Source of the DNA: Runella sp. CRIBMP
GTDB lineage: Bacteria; Bacteroidota; Bacteroidia; Cytophagales; Spirosomataceae
Length of the DNA stretch: 64,000 nt
Assembly: GCF_009905605.1 (NCBI RefSeq)
Contig: NZ_JAAAKZ010000005.1
Location: forward strand, 124,001-188,000
Reading direction: 5' to 3'
Under the pieces are notes generated by a model, which ran no database searches, was not told the origin of the DNA, and saw only the letters and a list, made by a program, of their open reading frames with translations. The position numbers were made by a program, and so were the translations under genes. This document shows, piece after piece, positions 3,601 through 12,320 of the stretch (positions are counted from its first letter, which is position 1; each line of letters begins with the position of its first letter).

Positions 3601-3742
3601 CACCCAAAGCTACAAAATGAGCCAAGTGGTATCGATGAAAAAAATGGATGAGTCGCTCATGAGCGCAGGCCTACACGAAGCCATGAGCCAACCAGAATTG
3701 GTGGACTTGGTAGAATATTTATCCAGCTTAAAACGAAAGTAA
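665..3742 (+). CDS. Secreted membrane-bound-dehydrogenase-type beta-propeller with HEAT repeats and C-terminal cytochrome c domain
   Basis: This 1025-residue protein has three parts. An N-terminal signal or anchor (about residues 1-20) leads into a PVC-type membrane-bound-dehydrogenase propeller to about residue 440 (blocks GRIWVLEAYNYRPH, APDGSLFAADWYDPGVGG). HEAT-like helical repeats follow to about 880. A heme-binding domain carries a CAICH c-type heme site, with Cys902, Cys905 and His906. The architecture is known from Planctomycetes, Verrucomicrobia and Bacteroidota and is thought to oxidise sugars or similar substrates in the periplasm, passing electrons to the cytochrome. The substrate cannot be read from sequence. 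The start at 665 gives the expected secretion signal. It appears monocistronic and is followed by a hairpin terminator at 3874-3909. Confidence 0.88.
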   Translation: MKKYLWGLGGLALAGSLLATYQNDNPSRGAQTTLDSVYATLTQEQKHELKYAVGALEVADGLEANLFASEPMITNPTNIDIDHKGRIWVLEAYNYRPHITGNATHKEGDRIMILEDTNGDGKADASKVFYQGPEVNAPLGILVMGNRVLVSQSPYVWLFTDENGDDKADKKEIIFQGVKGEQHDHGMHAFTFGHDGKLYFNFGNEGNQLLDGKGQPVLDQDGQPIDRKKYKQGMVFRCDQDFKNVEVLGHNFRNNYEVAVDSYGTMWQSDNDDDGNKGVRINYVMEYGNYGYTDEMTGASWSANRTNIESEIPLRHWHLNDPGAIPNLLQTGAGSPTGMLIYEGDMLPKVFQNQMIHCDAGPNVVRSYPVEKNGAGFKASIVNVLYGKRNQWFRPSDVCVAPDGSLFAADWYDPGVGGHQAGDLNRGRIYRVAPANTAYKVPTSDFSTLEGALKAIQSPNVSVRYMAWNKIRSLGQSAESDLVKMYQTSPNPRMKARALWLLTKLSNGTKYVELALKDTNPDIKITAIRAARQITAKGVLPLSIEHLNTLAADPDAQVRREVALAIRHISDDLAADVWAQLATRYDGKDRWYLEALGVSADGQWDKFYNAWLKMAGSNPTATPKNRDIVWRARTAASVPLLASLAGDKNVPLNDRLRYFRAFDFNPGATEKSNALLDIMKGNTDNDVAKLCLRHLDPGFVKTSPVAQQSLQKLLDASFGTSEYMDLVQRFEPISESKRLLQVATEKPMQRDGRDAARQLLKQEQAPLLWATINGKDAAKAQSVVTSLRSVGTKQSIDILKAVALDPKRPKALRAEATRALGGSMDGEDLVLALLKEGKFSGDLKAAAVQGVSSAWRKNVRIEAAKYLDAAPSKAGKKLPPVSELMAMTGNAANGQKVFANYCAICHQVNGEGNDFGPKLSEIGSKLGKDGQYMAIFYPSAGVSFGYEGYEVKFKDGTTTVGIVSSKTETDLLLKFPGGTTQSYKMSQVVSMKKMDESLMSAGLHEAMSQPELVDLVEYLSSLKRK

Positions 3743-4793: not shown

Positions 4794-5228
4794 TTATTTT
4801 TTTGCTTCTGCTGCTTTTTCAACAGTGGAATGATGCGAGGCGGCAAACATCCATCGGTCGTTTTGCTTTTGGATGGTGTAAGTAAACGCCACTGGATTTC
4901 CTCCAAACGTATGGATACCACTGGCTACAATCAAATCACCTGACTTAATGAATTTTAGATCAGAGACTTCGCTGTTGGTGCTCTTTCGTCCTTCAGCCCC
5001 TTTGACCACAGACTCTCGGTACGAAAACAAACCTTTGGTATTGGTATACCTAAAATCACTCGGAATGCGGCTGTTGAAAAAGCTGTGCGGGTCGGTGTTG
5101 TATTCTGTGATAAACAATTGGAGTACTTTTTCAGGATCATCCGTATTGTCTTTTTGGGCAAAACTGAACGAGTGAATGCTCAGAAAAAGGAAAGTACAAA
5201 AAGCGATTTTTACTGGTAAAGTTTTCAT
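4794..5228 (-). CDS. Secreted NTF2-like (SnoaL/DUF4440-type) protein
   Basis: The 144-residue product has a signal peptide ending near SFSFAQ. The NTF2-like fold signature includes an N-terminal helix (VLQLFITEYNTD) and beta-strands ending FTYTIQKQNDRWMFAASH, as in SnoaL/DUF4440 proteins. Such proteins bind small ligands or act as accessory domains; no catalytic set is identifiable. The open frame extends to 5297, but the Met at 5228 gives a clean signal peptide and leaves the conserved 21-bp palindrome at 5287-5307 outside the coding region. It lies just downstream of the LuxR-type regulator on the same strand and has its own predicted promoter. It converges on the preceding gene with 3 bp between them. 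Confidence 0.75.
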   Translation of the reverse strand: MKTLPVKIAFCTFLFLSIHSFSFAQKDNTDDPEKVLQLFITEYNTDPHSFFNSRIPSDFRYTNTKGLFSYRESVVKGAEGRKSTNSEVSDLKFIKSGDLIVASGIHTFGGNPVAFTYTIQKQNDRWMFAASHHSTVEKAAEAKK

Positions 5229-5259
5229 TGAAGCAGATAAGTTTAGTGAATGATTGAGA

Positions 5260-5307
5260 CAAAGGTCGGTCATAATCCTAAGCCTCACCATCCCCAATTT
5301 GGGTAGT
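5260..5307 (-). promoter_or_regulatory. Putative activator-dependent promoter: 21-bp palindrome plus -7-like box
   Basis: The plus strand has an imperfect dyad at 5287-5307, ACCATCCC-CAATT-TGGGTAGT. On the minus strand it is followed after 19 nt by GACCTTTG (5260-5267), one base from the Bacteroidota -7 consensus TAnnTTTG. The start codon at 5228 lies 58 nt from the palindrome. The same arrangement with the same 19-nt spacing occurs at 12191-12238. That the adjacent LuxR-type regulator binds here is inference. Confidence 0.6.
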
Positions 5308-5309
5308 TT

Positions 5310-5945
5310 TTAAACCAACTTTTGCTCAATGGCCTTCACCACGGCTTCGGGGGCGGAATTGACGTGGAGTTTTTCGTAGATATGCTTGATGTGGTAGTGA
5401 ACCGTATGTACACTCAACGAGCACGCGTCAGCTATCATTTTGTAACTCATGCCTTTTACCAAACAAGTCAGTACTTCGCGCTCGCGCCCCGTGAGTTCGA
5501 TATAGGTAGGTTGCGACTGTACAAACTGATTTTGAAACATTTGCATTACCTTGACCGCAATAGCGGGCGACATGTGCGCTCCTCCCTTGTGAACATCTTG
5601 AATAGCCTGCCACACGTCGTCGGGGTCGGGGCTTTTGAGTACGTAGCCTGATGCACCGCCACAAACTGCCGAAAAAATACGGTGTTCGTCTTCAAAAATG
5701 GTATGAATCAGTACTTTCGTTTCGGGGTAAACAGCTTTTATGCGCTGTAATGCTTCGATACCCGACAGCCCTGGCATCTGAATGTCCATCAGTACCACAT
5801 CGGGGCAATGCTTGCGGATTTTGGCAACGGCATCGTTGGCATCTTCATACGCACCGGCCAAATACGCACCTTCCGTATTGTCAAAATACAATTTCAGGCT
5901 TTGCCGCAGGCTTTTGTTATCCTCAAAAAGTACAATGCTGATCAT
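5310..5945 (-). CDS. LuxR/NarL-family response regulator
   Basis: The 211 residues form a receiver domain (1-120) with acidic pocket Glu8/Asp9, phospho-acceptor Asp54 (VVLMDIQMPG) and Lys104. A LuxR-type helix-turn-helix follows (about 145-205; LTGREREVL, MIADACSLSVHTVHYHIKHIYEKL). It is a DNA-binding transcription factor activated by phosphorylation. Its ATG overlaps the TGA of the upstream histidine kinase (ATGA), so the two are translationally coupled and it is very likely that kinase's partner. The second kinase just upstream probably feeds it too. A palindrome suitable for a NarL-type dimer lies beside the gene (5287-5307) and again at the head of the operon (12218-12238). Confidence 0.93.
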   Translation of the reverse strand: MISIVLFEDNKSLRQSLKLYFDNTEGAYLAGAYEDANDAVAKIRKHCPDVVLMDIQMPGLSGIEALQRIKAVYPETKVLIHTIFEDEHRIFSAVCGGASGYVLKSPDPDDVWQAIQDVHKGGAHMSPAIAVKVMQMFQNQFVQSQPTYIELTGREREVLTCLVKGMSYKMIADACSLSVHTVHYHIKHIYEKLHVNSAPEAVVKAIEQKLV

Positions 5946-7795
5946 TTTTTAATATTGTTTACTATCATCTCTATAATCGTTCCAATTCCTTCTCCCGACG
6001 AAATATTCACCTCAAACCCACCTTCCTTTGCCCGTTTTTGAAAATTTTTCAAACCATTCCCATCGGTATTTTTCGAACAATCAAAGCCTTGGCCGTCGTC
6101 CGAAATTCGTATGTGCAAAGCGTTGTCTTGCTGATAGATACGTACTTGAACGGTGGTTGCGTGGGCGTGCTTGGCGATGTTGTGGAGGGCTTCTTTATAG
6201 ACCAAATACAGGTTGCGTCGCTGCTCCATCGTGAAAATGGGCAATTGAGTAGCTGGGACTTCGTTCTCAAAAACAAAGGAGATGTCGTGGGTTGTGAGCA
6301 ATTTAAAACCCACCGCTCGCATCTTTTCGAGGAGTTTTTCGGGTGTGTCGTTATCAGGATTTAAGGCCCAAACGGTATCTCGAATGGTGTGAATGGCTTC
6401 TTCGGAATCGGTTTTGATTTGGCTCAAAATAGAATTTGCTTCCAGATTTTTAGTGCCGACTTTCTTTTGAATCACCTTGGCCGAAGTGGCAATGCTGGTG
6501 AGGGTGGCACCTACTTCATCGTGCAAATCACGGGCAATTTCGTCACGGATTTGGCGGAGTTTGTTTTGTTGGCGCAGATTTTCTCGGAGTTGGGCGATGA
6601 GTTGCTGTTGGGTTTGGGCCTGTTCTCTTCGCTGTTGACCCGCACGTTGAGCCAAAATATACCCCAGCATGGTGATTTCAATCAAGGTACCCGGGACAAA
6701 TAAATTGTTGTAAGGGATGAAGGGTAGCCAAGAAATATTGTAAAGGGCAAACATGCTAATAATCATGGCTATGAGGCTGATACTAAAAGCAACTCCATAA
6801 ACCCAGACTTGCTTAAAATTCTTAATTGACACGTAAACGAGCCCAATCAACAACATGAATAATACGATTAAGATATACCCTCCCCAGTCAATTTTGAGCC
6901 AAAAGAGTAGACGGTAAAGTAACGATGGGAAGTTATTATCAACAAGACGAATCATTTTGGTAACTATCCAATTCATAAAATAAAGCCCGTTGAGGCCCAT
7001 GATTGCCCAATAGAGCGTTTTTGAATAGAAACGCAAATTGAGAAACTTAACGTGGAAAAGCGACCAACATAATTGATATATAAATGGTGGAGCAATAATA
7101 TACTTACTGACTGGCAGAAACGCGTAAAAATCCAAGTAAAAGGTAATAATACTGAACATCAGTAACGCATACCAGCCAATCAAGGAATCACGGAGACGAA
7201 TAGAAAAAATAAAAGCATAGACAAAGACGAGAACAAAAATGCCCAACGAAAAACTTTGCCAAATGGTGTTATTTTTTTGATAAGCGAGTGCATGTTCTAA
7301 GTTGCCAATGTGTATGTAATCGCCGTAGGCATTTCCTGATACAATTGAGATATAGATAACTTTGGGGTAACTACCCATGGGAAAAATGGGTGGTCTCGTA
7401 AGTACTTGTTGATAGAAAGCAGGGGTTTTTAATCCTGCCTGAAACGCCCGTTGTTGCTCTTTTTCATCCATTATGATGACTTCTATTCTACGAAATCCTC
7501 GAAAACTGTGAATAAGGTAAAGGTCTTCTGAGGTGCTGTTTTTTACTTCAAAACGCAACCAAATCTTTTCGGTAAAGTAACCGAATCCCACAATTTCTTT
7601 TTGGTTCAACGCCTGAAAGGAATCCAATGGATAGCGGGCAACTTGCTCGGCTGTGAGTGTATGCGTGGCATCTTTTAAGAAGTAAACGTAGGTAGCAATA
7701 GGGTTGGCTTTTTGGGCATCAGTAATTGTGAGTATTTTCTGGGCCCAAGTGGGTGTTAAGCCTACAATTAGCAATATGAAAATAGGGAGGCGCAT
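5942..7795 (-). CDS. 7TM sensor histidine kinase (7TMR-DISM, HisKA_3, HATPase_c), proximal copy
   Basis: The 617-residue kinase has a signal peptide (1-18), an extracellular 7TMR-DISMED2-type beta-domain (about 20-155) and seven membrane segments (about 180-385). A short coiled coil rich in Q and R leads to a HisKA_3 dimerisation domain with the phospho-acceptor His in ARDLHDEVGA, then a HATPase domain (N-box HNIAKHAHA, G-box DDGQGF). Extracellular DISMED2 domains are thought to bind carbohydrate-like ligands. It is coupled by ATGA overlap to the response regulator and sits 3 bp after its paralogue. The last 45 or so codons are nearly identical to those of the paralogue at DNA level (133 bp with no mismatch), which suggests recent gene conversion. 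Confidence 0.93.
   Translation of the reverse strand: MRLPIFILLIVGLTPTWAQKILTITDAQKANPIATYVYFLKDATHTLTAEQVARYPLDSFQALNQKEIVGFGYFTEKIWLRFEVKNSTSEDLYLIHSFRGFRRIEVIIMDEKEQQRAFQAGLKTPAFYQQVLTRPPIFPMGSYPKVIYISIVSGNAYGDYIHIGNLEHALAYQKNNTIWQSFSLGIFVLVFVYAFIFSIRLRDSLIGWYALLMFSIITFYLDFYAFLPVSKYIIAPPFIYQLCWSLFHVKFLNLRFYSKTLYWAIMGLNGLYFMNWIVTKMIRLVDNNFPSLLYRLLFWLKIDWGGYILIVLFMLLIGLVYVSIKNFKQVWVYGVAFSISLIAMIISMFALYNISWLPFIPYNNLFVPGTLIEITMLGYILAQRAGQQRREQAQTQQQLIAQLRENLRQQNKLRQIRDEIARDLHDEVGATLTSIATSAKVIQKKVGTKNLEANSILSQIKTDSEEAIHTIRDTVWALNPDNDTPEKLLEKMRAVGFKLLTTHDISFVFENEVPATQLPIFTMEQRRNLYLVYKEALHNIAKHAHATTVQVRIYQQDNALHIRISDDGQGFDCSKNTDGNGLKNFQKRAKEGGFEVNISSGEGIGTIIEMIVNNIKK
5977..6109. repeat. 133-bp exact direct repeat, copy 1 (3' end of proximal kinase)
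   Basis: Identical base for base to 7834-7966 (offset 1857). It encodes the HATPase C-terminal segment. Identity includes all third-codon positions, while flanking paralogous sequence differs at many sites. Confidence 0.9.
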
Positions 7796-7798
7796 AAA

Positions 7799-9685
7799 TC
7801 AAAAGTCTAATTGAGAAATTACCAATAAAACTGTCGTTCCAATTCCTTCTCCCGACGAAATATTCACCTCAAACCCACCTTCCTTTGCCCGTTTTTGAAA
7901 ATTTTTCAAACCATTCCCATCGGTATTTTTCGAACAATCAAAGCCTTGGCCGTCGTCCGAAATTCGGATGTGTAAGGCATTGGTTTGTTGATAGACACGC
8001 ACTTGGGCGTTGGTTGCTTGGGAATGTTTGGCGATATTGTGAATGGCTTCTTTATAGACTAAGTAAATATTGCGTCGCTGTTCCATGTTAAACATGGGTA
8101 GTTGTGCTATGGGGACATCGTTTTCAAAAACAAAGGCAATGTCATGGGGTGTTAGCAGTTTGAAACCTACGGCTTTCATCTTTTCGAGGAGTTTTTCGGG
8201 GGCATCGTTATCGGGATTCAAAGCCCAAACGGTATCTCGAATGGTGTGAATGGCTTCTTCAGAATCGGTTTTGATTTGAGCTAAAATAGCGTTAGTCTGC
8301 GAATGAGTCCTGCCATTTTTTTTCTGAATCACCCTGGCTGAAGTAGCAATGCTGGTGAGGGTAGCGCCGACTTCGTCGTGAAGATCGCGGGCAATTTCGT
8401 CACGGATTTGGAGGAGTTTGTTCTGCTGACGCAGGTTTTCTTGAAGTTGGGCGATGAGTTGCTGTTGGGTTTGGAATTGCTCTTTGCGGTGTTGGCTGAC
8501 GCGTTCGGCTAACACAAATCCCAACAGAACTATTTCCAGTAATGAGCCAATAAAATAGAAATTGTTGTATGGATAATGAGGCAGCCAAGAAATGTCAAAA
8601 AGGGCTAAGATAGCGATAATCATCGAAGTCAACCCAATACTAAACGCCAGTGCGTACCACCGTACTTTTTGAAAATCTCTGATACTTACATAGACTACGG
8701 CAATCAATAAGATAAGTAAACTAATAGCCAGATACCCCACATATTCAATACCTAACCAATGCGTTACAATACGCATCAGCGAGTAGGGCGGCCCGAAAAA
8801 ACCAGTAATCATCTGATGCAGGTAAGCTGCTACGTCCAACCCAAGCCAAAAAATGAGTGAGTAATAAAGAAACTTAGAGTATTTTTTGAGGTTGATAAAT
8901 TTGATTAAAAAAATAGTCCACACACCCAAAAAGACCAAATGAATAGGATAATATGGACGGAATTGGGTATACCACGAGTCCTGTCCGAAAAATTCTAAAA
9001 GATATCCACTGCGGTCTATAAACCAGTGAGTATTGGTGAAAACAAATAACGCATACCAACCGATGAGTTGGTCGCGGAGCTGAAAATAGAAGACAAGTGC
9101 GTACAAAAAAACCAAAAAATAAACGCCGGCCAACCCACCATGCCAAAAACCGATTTGCTTTTGATAAAGAAGAGCATTGCCCATGTCGGTGAGTTGCAGA
9201 TAGTCATTGAAAAAGTCAACGATGGAAAACTCAGCCGCAAGATAAACCGTGCGCGGATGTTTACCTATGGAAGCTAAGGCTTGCGAAATCGGAGCTATGC
9301 GCTTATCAAAGGGGGTGTTTGAGGGTAGTTTTTGAATGGTCAATAGACCTTTTTCATCTACTGTATAAACCTCCAGCTTGGTAAATTTCCATTGGGTTGA
9401 AAGGAGAACTAATTCTCTATCGGTCTGATTATTGACGTTAAATCTTAGCCATACTGTTCCCAATCGAATTGCCAATTGAATGGCCCCCTGTCGGTTCATA
9501 GGTTTGAAGGAGTCTAAGGGATAACGTGCTATCTGTTCATAGGTAAGTTGGTGGGTTAAGTCTTCGTAATAATAGGCACCAGGTGCCACCGTCCGTATGC
9601 GTTGAGCATCACTGATGGTTAGCACTGGTTGTGCCCAAGCCGGGAGGTGGATACCAATGAGTAGGAAGAAGAGCAGGGTTCGCAT
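7799..9685 (-). CDS. 7TM sensor histidine kinase (7TMR-DISM, HisKA_3, HATPase_c), distal copy
   Basis: The 628-residue paralogue of the next gene has the same order: signal peptide, DISMED2 extracellular domain (to about 160), seven membrane helices (about 180-395), Q-rich coiled coil, HisKA_3 (ARDLHDEVGA) and HATPase_c (HNIAKHSQA, DDGQGF). The cytoplasmic half is strongly conserved with the proximal copy, whereas the sensor half differs widely. The pair therefore probably senses different ligands but talks to the same LuxR regulator. It starts 38 bp after the stop of the outer-membrane barrel gene and no terminator is visible between them, so an operon is likely. The C-terminus is slightly longer (TTVLLVISQLDF). 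Confidence 0.93.
   Translation of the reverse strand: MRTLLFFLLIGIHLPAWAQPVLTISDAQRIRTVAPGAYYYEDLTHQLTYEQIARYPLDSFKPMNRQGAIQLAIRLGTVWLRFNVNNQTDRELVLLSTQWKFTKLEVYTVDEKGLLTIQKLPSNTPFDKRIAPISQALASIGKHPRTVYLAAEFSIVDFFNDYLQLTDMGNALLYQKQIGFWHGGLAGVYFLVFLYALVFYFQLRDQLIGWYALFVFTNTHWFIDRSGYLLEFFGQDSWYTQFRPYYPIHLVFLGVWTIFLIKFINLKKYSKFLYYSLIFWLGLDVAAYLHQMITGFFGPPYSLMRIVTHWLGIEYVGYLAISLLILLIAVVYVSIRDFQKVRWYALAFSIGLTSMIIAILALFDISWLPHYPYNNFYFIGSLLEIVLLGFVLAERVSQHRKEQFQTQQQLIAQLQENLRQQNKLLQIRDEIARDLHDEVGATLTSIATSARVIQKKNGRTHSQTNAILAQIKTDSEEAIHTIRDTVWALNPDNDAPEKLLEKMKAVGFKLLTPHDIAFVFENDVPIAQLPMFNMEQRRNIYLVYKEAIHNIAKHSQATNAQVRVYQQTNALHIRISDDGQGFDCSKNTDGNGLKNFQKRAKEGGFEVNISSGEGIGTTVLLVISQLDF
7834..7966. repeat. 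133-bp exact direct repeat, copy 2 (3' end of distal kinase)
   Basis: Partner of 5977-6109. Unequal recombination between the two copies would fuse the kinase genes and delete 1857 bp. Confidence 0.9.
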
Positions 9686-9723
9686 TAGTAGCAGATTTGT
9701 TGTACAAGGTAGAGATAATAGTT

Positions 9724-12162
9724 CTAAAACTGAACTCGTCCCCTTTCTTCATCGGCACCTCGGCGTTGGCGGGTGGTTTTGACTTTTTGATTGCCAAAAT
9801 TACGGGAGTACGTCAATTTCACTACGCGCGGCTCAAACTTCATTTTGGCCTGAAAATCAAATTGTTGAATTGGAAATGAGGTGTACCATCGTAGCGTGTT
9901 TGTCCAAAAAATATCGCTGATATTCAGCCGAAACGTGCCTTTATTAATGGGTAATACTTTCTGAATACCCGCAATTACGTTGGTTCTGCTGCGTAAATTC
10001 ATGACACCTGCTGGAATAAGTGATAGGTACTGCACGTTTAATTCAGCCGTCCAATGGTTACCGAGGTTGAAAGTATGCACCGAATTGGCATTGCCGTAAT
10101 AGATGCGTTGGCTAAAAGGCCCAATGTCAAACTGCGATTGCGAACTGCGGTAATAACCCGCCAAGTTGTTCTGAACTTTCCACCAAGACGTGAGCGTGAG
10201 CGGGAAGGTTACTTCTACTGACAAGACATCAGAACGGTCGAAATTTTGGGTAATGTGAATCAATTCGGGGCGACCAGGATACGTAATGGGTTGGTGTTTG
10301 TTGATGATATCTCGTTCGTGGCTATACCCGACCCAGAAAAAATAAGCTCCTTTGAACCCATAGCCCGCCCTAAGACTGCTGTTATAGGCGGGTTTTAGGG
10401 CGATATTACCCACGTAGTAGGTATTGGGGTCGGTGATAAAAAAATTAGGAATTAGTTCGGTAAAGACGGGGCGCGTCAAGCGGCGACTGTAAGCCAAGTT
10501 GAGGGTATGCAGTTTTCCGACTTGATGTTTGAGCGACGCACTCGGAAACAGATTGAGATAGCGTCGGTCGAGGAGGGGTTTACCGTCCACCGATTGGATG
10601 TTGGTATGCGTATTTTCAGCCCGGAGACCGCCTTGAAAATCGGTTGTAGGGCCGAGCTTTCCCGTAAAATTGGCGTAAACCGCCCCGATTGTCTCGCGGA
10701 AAAGGGCTTTACTTGTCAAGTTGGGGTCCATGGTGAGCACTCCGTCTATGTTGCGCTCCACGCCGAGGGCGTTGTCAATGTGCGATACGTTGATTTTAAA
10801 ACCACTTTCCATTTTCCATTTTTTACCCAACGGTCGCGCGTAATCGGCGCGCAATACCCCAAACCGAATGCCCGTATCTTTGGTGGTTTTCATGGACTTG
10901 ATGGGCAAAACCGAAGGGTCGGTTGTCATAAATTGGTTAATGTCAAAAGTATTGAGTCCATTGTTTTCAAAAGACTGATAATCAGCGTCAATGGTAAGGG
11001 TATGTTGGCGGGTGGTGGTATGCGAAAGCCCTACGCTTGCGCCCCAATTTCGCCACGGCGCATCTTCTATCCACGTCAATTCCGACGTAGTAAACGGCTG
11101 AGACTGTCCCGCAATTCGGGTGTTGGAAGAGTTGTAAGAAATGACATCACGCTTGTTTAGTAAGCCCTGCACTTGTGCCGAAAGCACGGTTCGTTTGGTC
11201 AGTAAAATATCGGCTCCGACCCTAAAATCGGCGTTTTTGGTGATGGGGTAGCGGTCGGAGTATTGTTCGTTTCGCCAAATTGCCCCTTGCACGGGTTGGT
11301 TACGAATCGGTAAAAAATCAAACCAACCGCGGTCGTAATTGTAAGAAGTATTGGCAAACAAATTCACCCTTCCTTGATTGTGATTAATGGAAAAGCTACC
11401 GTTGGTTTTCTCGAATTTGCCATAGCCCGCCATCAGCGAAAAGCTGCCGTTGGTTCCTTCGCCTTGTTTGCGTTTGAGGACAATATTTATCAAACCCGCA
11501 TTTCCCTCCGCATCATACCGCGCCGAAGGATTAGTGATGAGTTCGATTGTTTCGACGTTGTCGGCGTTCATTCCGCTGAGCATTTGTACCAATGTTTCCA
11601 GCGGTAGCCGCGAGAGTTTACCATTGAGCATCACCATCACCCCCGACTTTCCGCCAAGGGCAATGTTACTGTTTTGGCGGTCTACCCGCACGCCCGGCGA
11701 GCGTTCGAGTACGTCCAAGACCGAACCACCCGCCGCCGTCATCATGGCCGAGGGATTGATGACCAACTTATCAAGTTGTTGTTCAAAAATTGGCTTTTGG
11801 GCAATGACCGTCACCTCGTTGAGTTGCTTTTCGAGGGCATTTGCCGTGAGGGTAGCCAATTGGTGCGTTCCTTCAGCGTCCTTTAGTACAAAAGGTGCGG
11901 AGTAGACATTTCGGTAGCCCACCATACTCGCCGTGACCAAATACTGCCCGATTTTAAGGCCTTCAAAAGCAAATAGGCCCGCCTCATTGGCCACAGCCCC
12001 CTTGGCCATCGAAGAATCTTTGGCGTTGATTAACAGCACATTGGCAAAGGCCAGAGGTTGCCCGTTGGTAGATTGCACCCTACCCGTAAGGCTACGTTGG
12101 GCAAAGCTAAAACTACTTTCCAGAAGGAGCAATAAACAAAGGAGGCGAGAAATGGCTGACAT
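9724..12162 (-). CDS. Outer-membrane beta-barrel protein of the TonB-dependent-receptor type with CarboxypepD_reg-like domain
   Basis: The 812-residue protein has a signal peptide ending near SFAQ (about 1-21). A carboxypeptidase-regulatory-like beta-sandwich follows (about 23-110; LTGRVQSTNGQPLAFANVLL). A plug-like domain (about 125-235; VLERSPGVRVDRQ, ITNPSARYDAEGNAGLINIVLK) precedes a long aromatic-rich barrel ending in F. It matches the Bacteroidota 'outer membrane beta-barrel family' related to TonB-dependent receptors; no classical TonB box is obvious. It heads the operon with the two 7TM kinases and the LuxR regulator and has the predicted operator/promoter at 12191-12238. A role in ligand uptake or in transmitting an envelope signal is inferred from this context. 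Confidence 0.9.
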   Translation of the reverse strand: MSAISRLLCLLLLLESSFSFAQRSLTGRVQSTNGQPLAFANVLLINAKDSSMAKGAVANEAGLFAFEGLKIGQYLVTASMVGYRNVYSAPFVLKDAEGTHQLATLTANALEKQLNEVTVIAQKPIFEQQLDKLVINPSAMMTAAGGSVLDVLERSPGVRVDRQNSNIALGGKSGVMVMLNGKLSRLPLETLVQMLSGMNADNVETIELITNPSARYDAEGNAGLINIVLKRKQGEGTNGSFSLMAGYGKFEKTNGSFSINHNQGRVNLFANTSYNYDRGWFDFLPIRNQPVQGAIWRNEQYSDRYPITKNADFRVGADILLTKRTVLSAQVQGLLNKRDVISYNSSNTRIAGQSQPFTTSELTWIEDAPWRNWGASVGLSHTTTRQHTLTIDADYQSFENNGLNTFDINQFMTTDPSVLPIKSMKTTKDTGIRFGVLRADYARPLGKKWKMESGFKINVSHIDNALGVERNIDGVLTMDPNLTSKALFRETIGAVYANFTGKLGPTTDFQGGLRAENTHTNIQSVDGKPLLDRRYLNLFPSASLKHQVGKLHTLNLAYSRRLTRPVFTELIPNFFITDPNTYYVGNIALKPAYNSSLRAGYGFKGAYFFWVGYSHERDIINKHQPITYPGRPELIHITQNFDRSDVLSVEVTFPLTLTSWWKVQNNLAGYYRSSQSQFDIGPFSQRIYYGNANSVHTFNLGNHWTAELNVQYLSLIPAGVMNLRSRTNVIAGIQKVLPINKGTFRLNISDIFWTNTLRWYTSFPIQQFDFQAKMKFEPRVVKLTYSRNFGNQKVKTTRQRRGADEERGRVQF

Positions 12163-12190
12163 ATCAATGTAGATTGTTTAATTGATACAT

Positions 12191-12238
12191 CAAAGTTCTC
12201 GAATTACGAATGATTGTACCATCCCCAATTCTGGTAGT
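12191..12238 (-). promoter_or_regulatory. Putative activator-dependent promoter of the barrel/kinase/regulator operon
   Basis: The plus strand has ACCATCCC-CAATT-CTGGTAGT (12218-12238), differing at two positions from 5287-5307. On the minus strand it is followed after 19 nt by GAACTTTG (12191-12198). The start codon of the barrel gene (12162) is 55 nt from the palindrome. The site also lies 82 bp before the GTG start proposed for the divergent sigma factor, so it could control both directions. Confidence 0.6.
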
Positions 12239-12320
12239 CTTGTTTAGTAACTTTTTTCACTCTCAGGCAACCCTTTTCTCTTTTTCTGCATTTCTGTTAT
12301 TGAAACCTAAAATCACAACC

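Follow-up and report, generated by a model that had tools for sequence, protein, structure and literature searches.

Response regulators of the NarL/FixJ type, such as NarL, VraR and DesR, combine a receiver with a GerE helix-turn-helix, and inverted-repeat operators are usual for them. At class II activator promoters of the CRP type, the axis of the operator lies at −41.5, the operator abuts the upstream promoter element and the spacing is rigid. In autoregulated two-component operons, the operator is carried by the regulator's own unit. Features of all three kinds appear to come together in a 64,000-nucleotide (nt) stretch of Runella sp. CRIBMP (contig NZ_JAAAKZ010000005.1, positions 124,001 to 188,000), here called the window, where two matched sites lie upstream of genes that accompany a NarL/LuxR-type response regulator. 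We read these sites, with a probability of about 0.8, as the operator pair of an autoregulated two-component cassette that would act by class II activation.

The regulator of the window aligns without gaps to NarL (1a04), and its best PDB matches are VraR. By this gap-free alignment, H183, Y184 and K187 of the window regulator stand where NarL has K188, V189 and K192, which we take, with the NarL numbering, to be base-contacting residues. Unlike the NarL/FixJ-type systems, the window has a CTACC-N3-ATTGGGGA operator placed at one fixed distance in a Bacteroidota −33/−7 promoter. Its promoters resemble class II promoters in having an axis near −41.5 on assumed start sites, an abutted upstream element and a rigid spacing, and differ from them in being of the sigma-ABfr kind, with TAnnTTTG at −7 (PMC7366714). 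Unlike other autoregulated two-component operons, the cassette is compact, comprising a barrel, two 7TMR-DISM kinases, the regulator and a secreted protein with two matched operators, and its paralogues often keep the frame with other operator sequences. A conserved operator pair is ordinary in kind; what is new is the promoter frame and a possible code. A literature search, with most subscription papers outside its reach, turned up neither a description of this system nor one of such a frame in Bacteroidota promoters. If the reading is right, the operators of many uncharacterised regulators could be predicted from upstream sequence.

Sequence comparison shows the sites, their spacing, their conservation and the cassette-free neighbourhoods; we infer binding, phosphorylation, activation and not repression, operon structure, start sites and insertion and not loss. 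In the proposed mechanism, a 7TMR-DISM kinase of the cassette would phosphorylate the regulator encoded at 5310–5945, for which the two sites would be the operators. A bound regulator dimer, centred 31 nt upstream of the −7 box at about −41.5, would border on −33 and, as a class II activator, would bring sigma-ABfr polymerase to promoters that lack TTG at the −33 position and have G in place of T as the first base of the −7 box. The barrel–kinase–kinase–regulator operon would be raised by positive autoregulation together with the secreted DUF4440-like gene, and the cassette would have been inserted as a unit with its own operators.

Two Matched Sites in One Promoter Frame

The predicted promoter elements of the window are as follows.

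5260..5267 (5267–5260 as read on the minus strand), minus strand: −7 box of copy 1, GACCTTTG, 19 nt from operator copy 1
5287..5307, minus strand: operator copy 1, ACCATCCCCAATTTGGGTAGT as read and ACTACCCAAATTGGGGATGGT on the gene strand, core CTACC-N3-ATTGGGGA, promoter of the secreted gene
12191..12198 (12198–12191 as read on the minus strand), minus strand: −7 box of copy 2, GAACTTTG, 19 nt from operator copy 2
12218..12238, minus strand: operator copy 2, ACCATCCCCAATTCTGGTAGT as read and ACTACCAGAATTGGGGATGGT on the gene strand, promoter of the presumed barrel–kinase–kinase–regulator operon

Direct reading bears out the geometry given in an earlier note on this DNA: the two 21-base-pair (bp) sites match at 19 of 21 positions in identical orientation, exactly 19 nt on the minus strand separate each from GACCTTTG or GAACTTTG, each box differs from TAnnTTTG by one base, and the start codons at 5228 and 12162 are 58 and 55 nt away. 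The same note described the sites as 21-bp palindromes, which is only partly right. About the axis that it had chosen, the two copies pair at 6/10 and 5/10 positions, and the near-palindromic operators of paralogues set the axis 1.5 bases away. On the alignment and these pairing counts, the 21-bp palindrome was dropped as the binding unit in favour of the conserved unit CTACC-N3-ATTGGGGA, with axis and extent corrected.

The corrected operator axis precedes the start of the −7 box by 31 nt. Since the −7 element of Bacteroidota sigma-ABfr promoters, TAnnTTTG, is centred at −7 (PMC7366714), the axis would fall at about −41.5 and the edge of the operator would abut −33. This location and the rigid spacing are those of a class II activator, as far as the assumed start site holds. 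At promoters of the wider regulator family described below, the bases seen most often at distances (d) of 23, 22 and 21 nt before the −7 box, at the edge of the operator, are T, T and then G or T. The window promoters have TGG where the −33 TTG usually stands, and their −7 boxes begin with G instead of T, so these promoters probably need an activator.

Rarity in the Genome and Conservation among Relatives

The genome of this strain (7.13 Mb in 55 contigs) was scanned for the 21-mer at up to three mismatches, with the reversed pattern as a control. Three sites were found, two of which are the window copies (no mismatches), and the control gave none; 100 shuffled windows gave an expectation of 0.00 matches. 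The earlier note had suggested a scan of the genome; the only extra match (C23:60288, three mismatches) lies within an open reading frame (ORF) of 742 amino acids (L007). The core with its spaced box, TACCNNNATTGGGGA-N23-NANNTTTG, occurs at 46 places at up to three mismatches, with 23 in all for the control. Two of these places have no mismatch, none has one, four have two and 40 have three, the window copies being the sole sites at 0–1 mismatch genome-wide.

Orthologues were searched for in 99 genomes, this one included, and 53 of them contain a match to the regulator at E ≤ 1e-40. Five other genomes (G001, G004, G011, G044 and G053) encode a regulator of 80–89% identity, and the site adjoins the regulator gene in all five. 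When the promoters of these loci are compared, as the earlier note had also advised, the spacing is the same and the intervening sequence has diverged. Sites precede the secreted gene in the window, G011, G004 and G044; they precede the first gene of the kinase–regulator unit, which is the barrel gene in the window and G053 and the kinase gene in G001, G011, G004 and, more weakly, G044; and they precede the regulator gene itself in G001 and G011. In G001, one site lies 3′ of the regulator, near a contig end. An operator is thus placed upstream of the unit encoding the regulator in the window and four of the five orthologous loci (L067, L068, L069 and L070), the operons being predicted from gene spacing. 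In the fifth locus (L071 of G044), an operator at 3619 heads a run of the secreted gene, an oxidoreductase-like ORF and the regulator gene, which are separated by 45 and 23 nt, and the regulator may belong to this unit. The middle ORF (L071:4188-5564) resembles, by eye, a FAD-linked oxidoreductase and is a possible further target.

The spacing was examined in 40 regions fetched by the regulator plus the window, a set that was not selected for the box and contains some near-identical loci; sites listed because a box stood at the expected place were not used. Among 27 exact cores, ACCNNNATTGGGG, NANNTTTG stands at offset 24, which corresponds to the 19-nt spacing, in 18 and elsewhere within offsets 0–69 in two. 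With one mismatch allowed, TANNTTTG is found at offset 24 for 23 of the 27 cores, with 16 matches over all other offsets combined. A comparison of the first 20 kb of the window and the five orthologous loci at up to five mismatches gave 14 places. NANNTTT[GA] lies exactly 19 nt off in 12 of them, CAACTTAA takes its place in one, and one within a gene (window 15351) has no box. In an alignment of the remaining 13 places, core and box are conserved and everything else has diverged.

Across the 99 genomes, six of the seven 21-mer matches at up to two mismatches adjoin a regulator of at least 80% identity, the exception being in G082. By this comparison, the sites appear to be operators of the local regulator, which upholds that part of the earlier note. 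Its claim of autoregulation from the −33 region likewise fits the rigid spacing there and the site variants upstream of the regulator gene in relatives. The likeness of two promoters 7 kb apart could also be the product of a recent functionless duplication. The chance of this as the only explanation is negligible, since the flanks differ beyond core and box, and beside orthologues, other genera included, both elements have been kept in similar positions.

The regulator could also bind the sites and repress, covering −33 in a negative autoregulatory loop. The operator does abut −33, and the family's T, T, G/T sits at its edge. A repressor would however tolerate shifts, whereas the single fixed spacing, shared by 18 of the 27 exact cores, is what contact between an activator and polymerase needs, and TGG at the −33 place together with the G-start −7 boxes suits dependence on an activator. 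Repression is therefore improbable, and class II activation is preferred.

The Cassette and Its Neighbourhood

The genes and the approximate extent of the cassette are as follows.

4794..5228, minus strand: target 1, a 144-amino-acid protein with a signal-peptide-like start; weak DUF4440 match, 23 bits against a cut-off of 25.2
4797..12253, no strand: presumed inserted cassette, approximate extent, from homology breakpoints with G007 and G010
5310..5945, minus strand: NarL/LuxR-type response regulator; Response_reg and GerE, with D54, T82 and K104 kept and recognition helix TVHYHIK
5942..7795, minus strand: 7TMR-DISM histidine kinase 2 (HisKA_3); 7TM domain match slightly under the Pfam cut-off
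7799..9685, minus strand: 7TMR-DISM histidine kinase 1 (HisKA_3); Pfam
9724..12162, minus strand: target 2, outer-membrane beta-barrel (CarboxypepD_reg and OMP_b-brl_3), presumed operon head; ORF and Pfam

The regulator matches Response_reg (1.4e-21) and GerE (3e-17), both above the Pfam cut-off, and its phospho-acceptor Asp and conserved Thr and Lys (D54, T82 and K104) are invariant in 20 aligned family members. With a receiver carrying these residues and a C-terminal GerE helix-turn-helix, it is by its sequence a NarL/FixJ-type regulator. Barrel to regulator is likely to be a single operon because the intergenic gaps are 38 and 3 nt followed by a 4-nt overlap. A relative of the secreted 144-amino-acid protein in L071 scores above the DUF4440 cut-off. 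Tandem 7TMR-DISM kinases precede one regulator at window 5942–9685, and the five orthologous loci show one kinase beside the regulator; that of G011 (L068:10713-12225) is divided between two overlapping ORFs.

A gene for a sigma factor of the extracytoplasmic function (ECF) type adjoins the cassette in divergent orientation, and the earlier note had counted it as a possible target. In G007, the cassette is absent, and 101 nt separate the sigma gene from the gene that precedes the cassette in the window. In G010, another insert occupies the place of the cassette, and in G003, the preceding gene is missing too. Homology with G010 ends at 4796 and restarts at 12252; that with G007 restarts at 12254, its left alignment fading weakly to 4870. 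In G011 and G004, the orthologue of the regulator is located away from the sigma gene. Insertion of the cassette with both operators as a unit seems likelier than repeated loss. Orthologues of the sigma factor (78–92% identity) occur in six other Runella genomes, and core (at up to one mismatch) plus box was found in none of the six fetched regions. The divergent sigma factor was accordingly rejected as a member of the regulon, on the orthologues without a site and the same neighbourhood without the cassette in G007 and G010.

The fixed spacing and the adjoining ECF-type sigma gene might suggest that the conserved block is a promoter element of a sigma factor, such as the neighbouring one, with a long-spaced −35-like box, and not an operator. 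The same six orthologues without the site, and the cassette orthologue standing apart from the sigma gene in G011 and G004, argue against this. In relatives, moreover, the block is a palindrome whose sequence differs from one regulator paralogue to the next, with a constant −7 box. We regard this explanation as far-fetched, and read the block as an operator.

Two observations concern this border. The insert of G010 (L337), about 1.2 kb between the DUF6973 and sigma genes, appears by eye to be a gene for an alcohol dehydrogenase/quinone oxidoreductase. G003, G007 and G010 conserve window 12254–12320 (GGCAACCCTT...TTTCTGCATTT...CCTAA), which lies upstream of the sigma gene and is possibly the sigma factor's own promoter.

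A Recurrent Frame in the Wider Regulator Family

The frame was followed in a family set of 200 fetched loci plus the window, which gave 203 regulators, 184 of them unique, in 134 clusters. Upstream of these regulators, 277 −7 boxes were found, and ATT peaks 31 nt before the box (53 cases; 1–19 at other distances, except 46 at 24). Palindromes of 16 bp with at least 6/8 pairs peak at 31 nt as well (36 vs 0–6). A palindrome of at least 6/9 pairs with a box at d = 31 occurs in 37/134 clusters, the 59 other distances having a mean of 2.4 and a maximum of 8 (d = 30) and the reverse strand 1. At 7/9 pairs or more, the count is 20/134 at d = 31, with at most 3 at other distances and 0 on the reverse strand.

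The frame was then examined out of sample over the phylum with preset criteria, in 84 regulators (75 clusters) drawn from among the matches listed and from 60 places hand-picked over genera; three loci already in the discovery set were left out, and L402 is the same gene as L378. Palindromes of at least 7/9 pairs number two at d = 31 and three at d = 30. A post-hoc split of the 6/9 count gave 5/25 for the same class or order (other distances at most 3, reverse strand 3) and 2/50 for other classes (at most 4, reverse strand 3). In a later inspection, made without regard to the box and with the data already known, palindromes of at least 8/9 pairs were found in 12 of the 84 test regulators, 10 of which have at least 4/6 box letters at d = 30/31; d = 30 was admitted because axes of the TVRTHLK type had earlier been read at 30. 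Other distance pairs give 0–4 in the test set, and in the discovery set 10 of 17 such palindromes (17/134) are at d = 30/31, with others at 0–4. This post-hoc look supports the distance of 30/31.

Several results weigh against the operator reading or its extension to the family. About the axis taken from paralogues, each window copy pairs at only 4/9 positions, which makes them poor palindromes, and the −33 position is also compatible with repression. In the family set, 97/134 clusters have no palindrome that passes. The preset criteria gave a weak result in the phylum set: a palindrome of at least 6/9 pairs at d = 31 was found in 7/75 clusters, with a mean of 1.5 and a maximum of 5 at other distances and 6 on the reverse strand. 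At up to three mismatches, the 21-mer has 63 matches in 40 of the 99 genomes vs 36 for the reversed control, mostly away from regulators of the kind encoded in the window. Core plus box at up to one mismatch is found in 30 of 222 genomes of the family, with 57 matches vs 7 for the control, and several of these lie in genes or far from the regulator family, for example in G102–G133, G012:C17, G004:C11 and G009:C3.

Operators differ between subfamilies, in each of which some members show none. Regulators with a TVH helix have ATTGGGG or ATTGGTG, those with TVNFH have ATTAGTAG or ATTAACAG, those with TVN[ST]HVK have ATTAGGG and those with TVRSHIKK have ATGTGAT; TTATCCGA is found with one TVRTHIV regulator (L236) and its relatives. 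Another regulator of the genome, either a NarL-type paralogue or a LytTR-type protein, might bind the window sites: related cores stand upstream of paralogues, one with two mismatches before the C1 paralogue of this strain, and LytTR genes in relatives are themselves preceded by such sites. Exact forms nevertheless occur mainly beside orthologues of the window regulator, and operator type tends to track the recognition helix, so that another regulator is very unlikely and the local one is favoured.

A Possible Code between Helix and Operator

We put forward, as a tentative and quite possibly wrong generalisation, that a Bacteroidota NarL-type family with several members per genome shares one rigid autoregulatory frame, with the palindrome axis 30–31 nt upstream of the −7 box, and that it is mainly the half-site that diversifies, along with residues 183, 184 and 187 of the recognition helix (His183 with ATTGG, Asn183 with ATTA, Arg183 often with ATG or ATC). 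Residue 183 was tallied over 50 sites, including four operon-head sites that were added by hand, all with His183 and all chosen as ATTGGGG, and one in L169 that was probably mis-picked. The first base after ATT is G in 18/20 sites with His183 and 4/30 with other residues, and GG follows in 17/20 and 3/30, respectively (Fisher p = 6e-8, computed without correction for ancestry). Without the four added sites, the His183 counts are 14/16 for G and 13/16 for GG (p = 1e-6). Among distant His183 regulators of Chitinophagales, L206 and L219 have ATTGG, and L207 and L259 do not.

When 211 regulator columns were ranked blind against the operator bases of 46 clusters, M125, Y20 and T147 came first, with Y184 6th, K187 22nd and H183 56th; the contact residues do not stand out in this ranking, which is confounded. 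When whole-protein identity was controlled for (69 regulators, 2346 pairs), K187 came 3rd, Y184 7th and H183 18th, with the receiver columns S16 and N10 above them; in the 764 closer pairs, H183 came 3rd, Y184 7th and K187 51st, S16 and N10 again being first. A preset rule for His183 applied out of sample found the expected site for 0/5 regulators. One of these five, L369, has, by eye and post hoc, a palindrome of 8/9 pairs that contains GGG, together with a diverged box at d = 31. As an association from which ancestry has not been removed, the His183–ATTGG code is suggestive only. If it were true, the helix of a regulator not studied before could reveal its operator, and paralogous sensor cassettes could pass from genome to genome with private operators and remain insulated. 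The relation between helix and operator would also offer a natural series of paralogues for testing a change of specificity with autoregulation kept.

Other Operator Variants and Sites

Two paralogues of this genome, G000:C1:241626-242258 and G000:C52:182707-183339, have other operator variants upstream (CACCCAAATTGGGGGG and CTACTTAAATTAACAG, respectively). In L100, L102 and L201, which have a TVNAHLR helix, ATT recurs 24 nt before the −7 box, and the resulting ATTCGCTATT is an asymmetric operator type (by eye in L100). In the TVRTHLK regulators L106, L286, L292 and L295, the axis seems, by eye, to lie 30 and not 31 nt before the −7 box. In various genomes, operators of related regulators also repeatedly precede genes for small LytTR DNA-binding proteins (L342:15967-16323, L344:3455-3814 and L350:6761-7087), collagen-like lipoprotein genes (L348:7114-7686, L351:7952-8485, which is below the Pfam cut-off, and L073:5010-5756), a gene for an FG-GAP protein and regulator genes themselves, and the regulons may be dispersed in some species.

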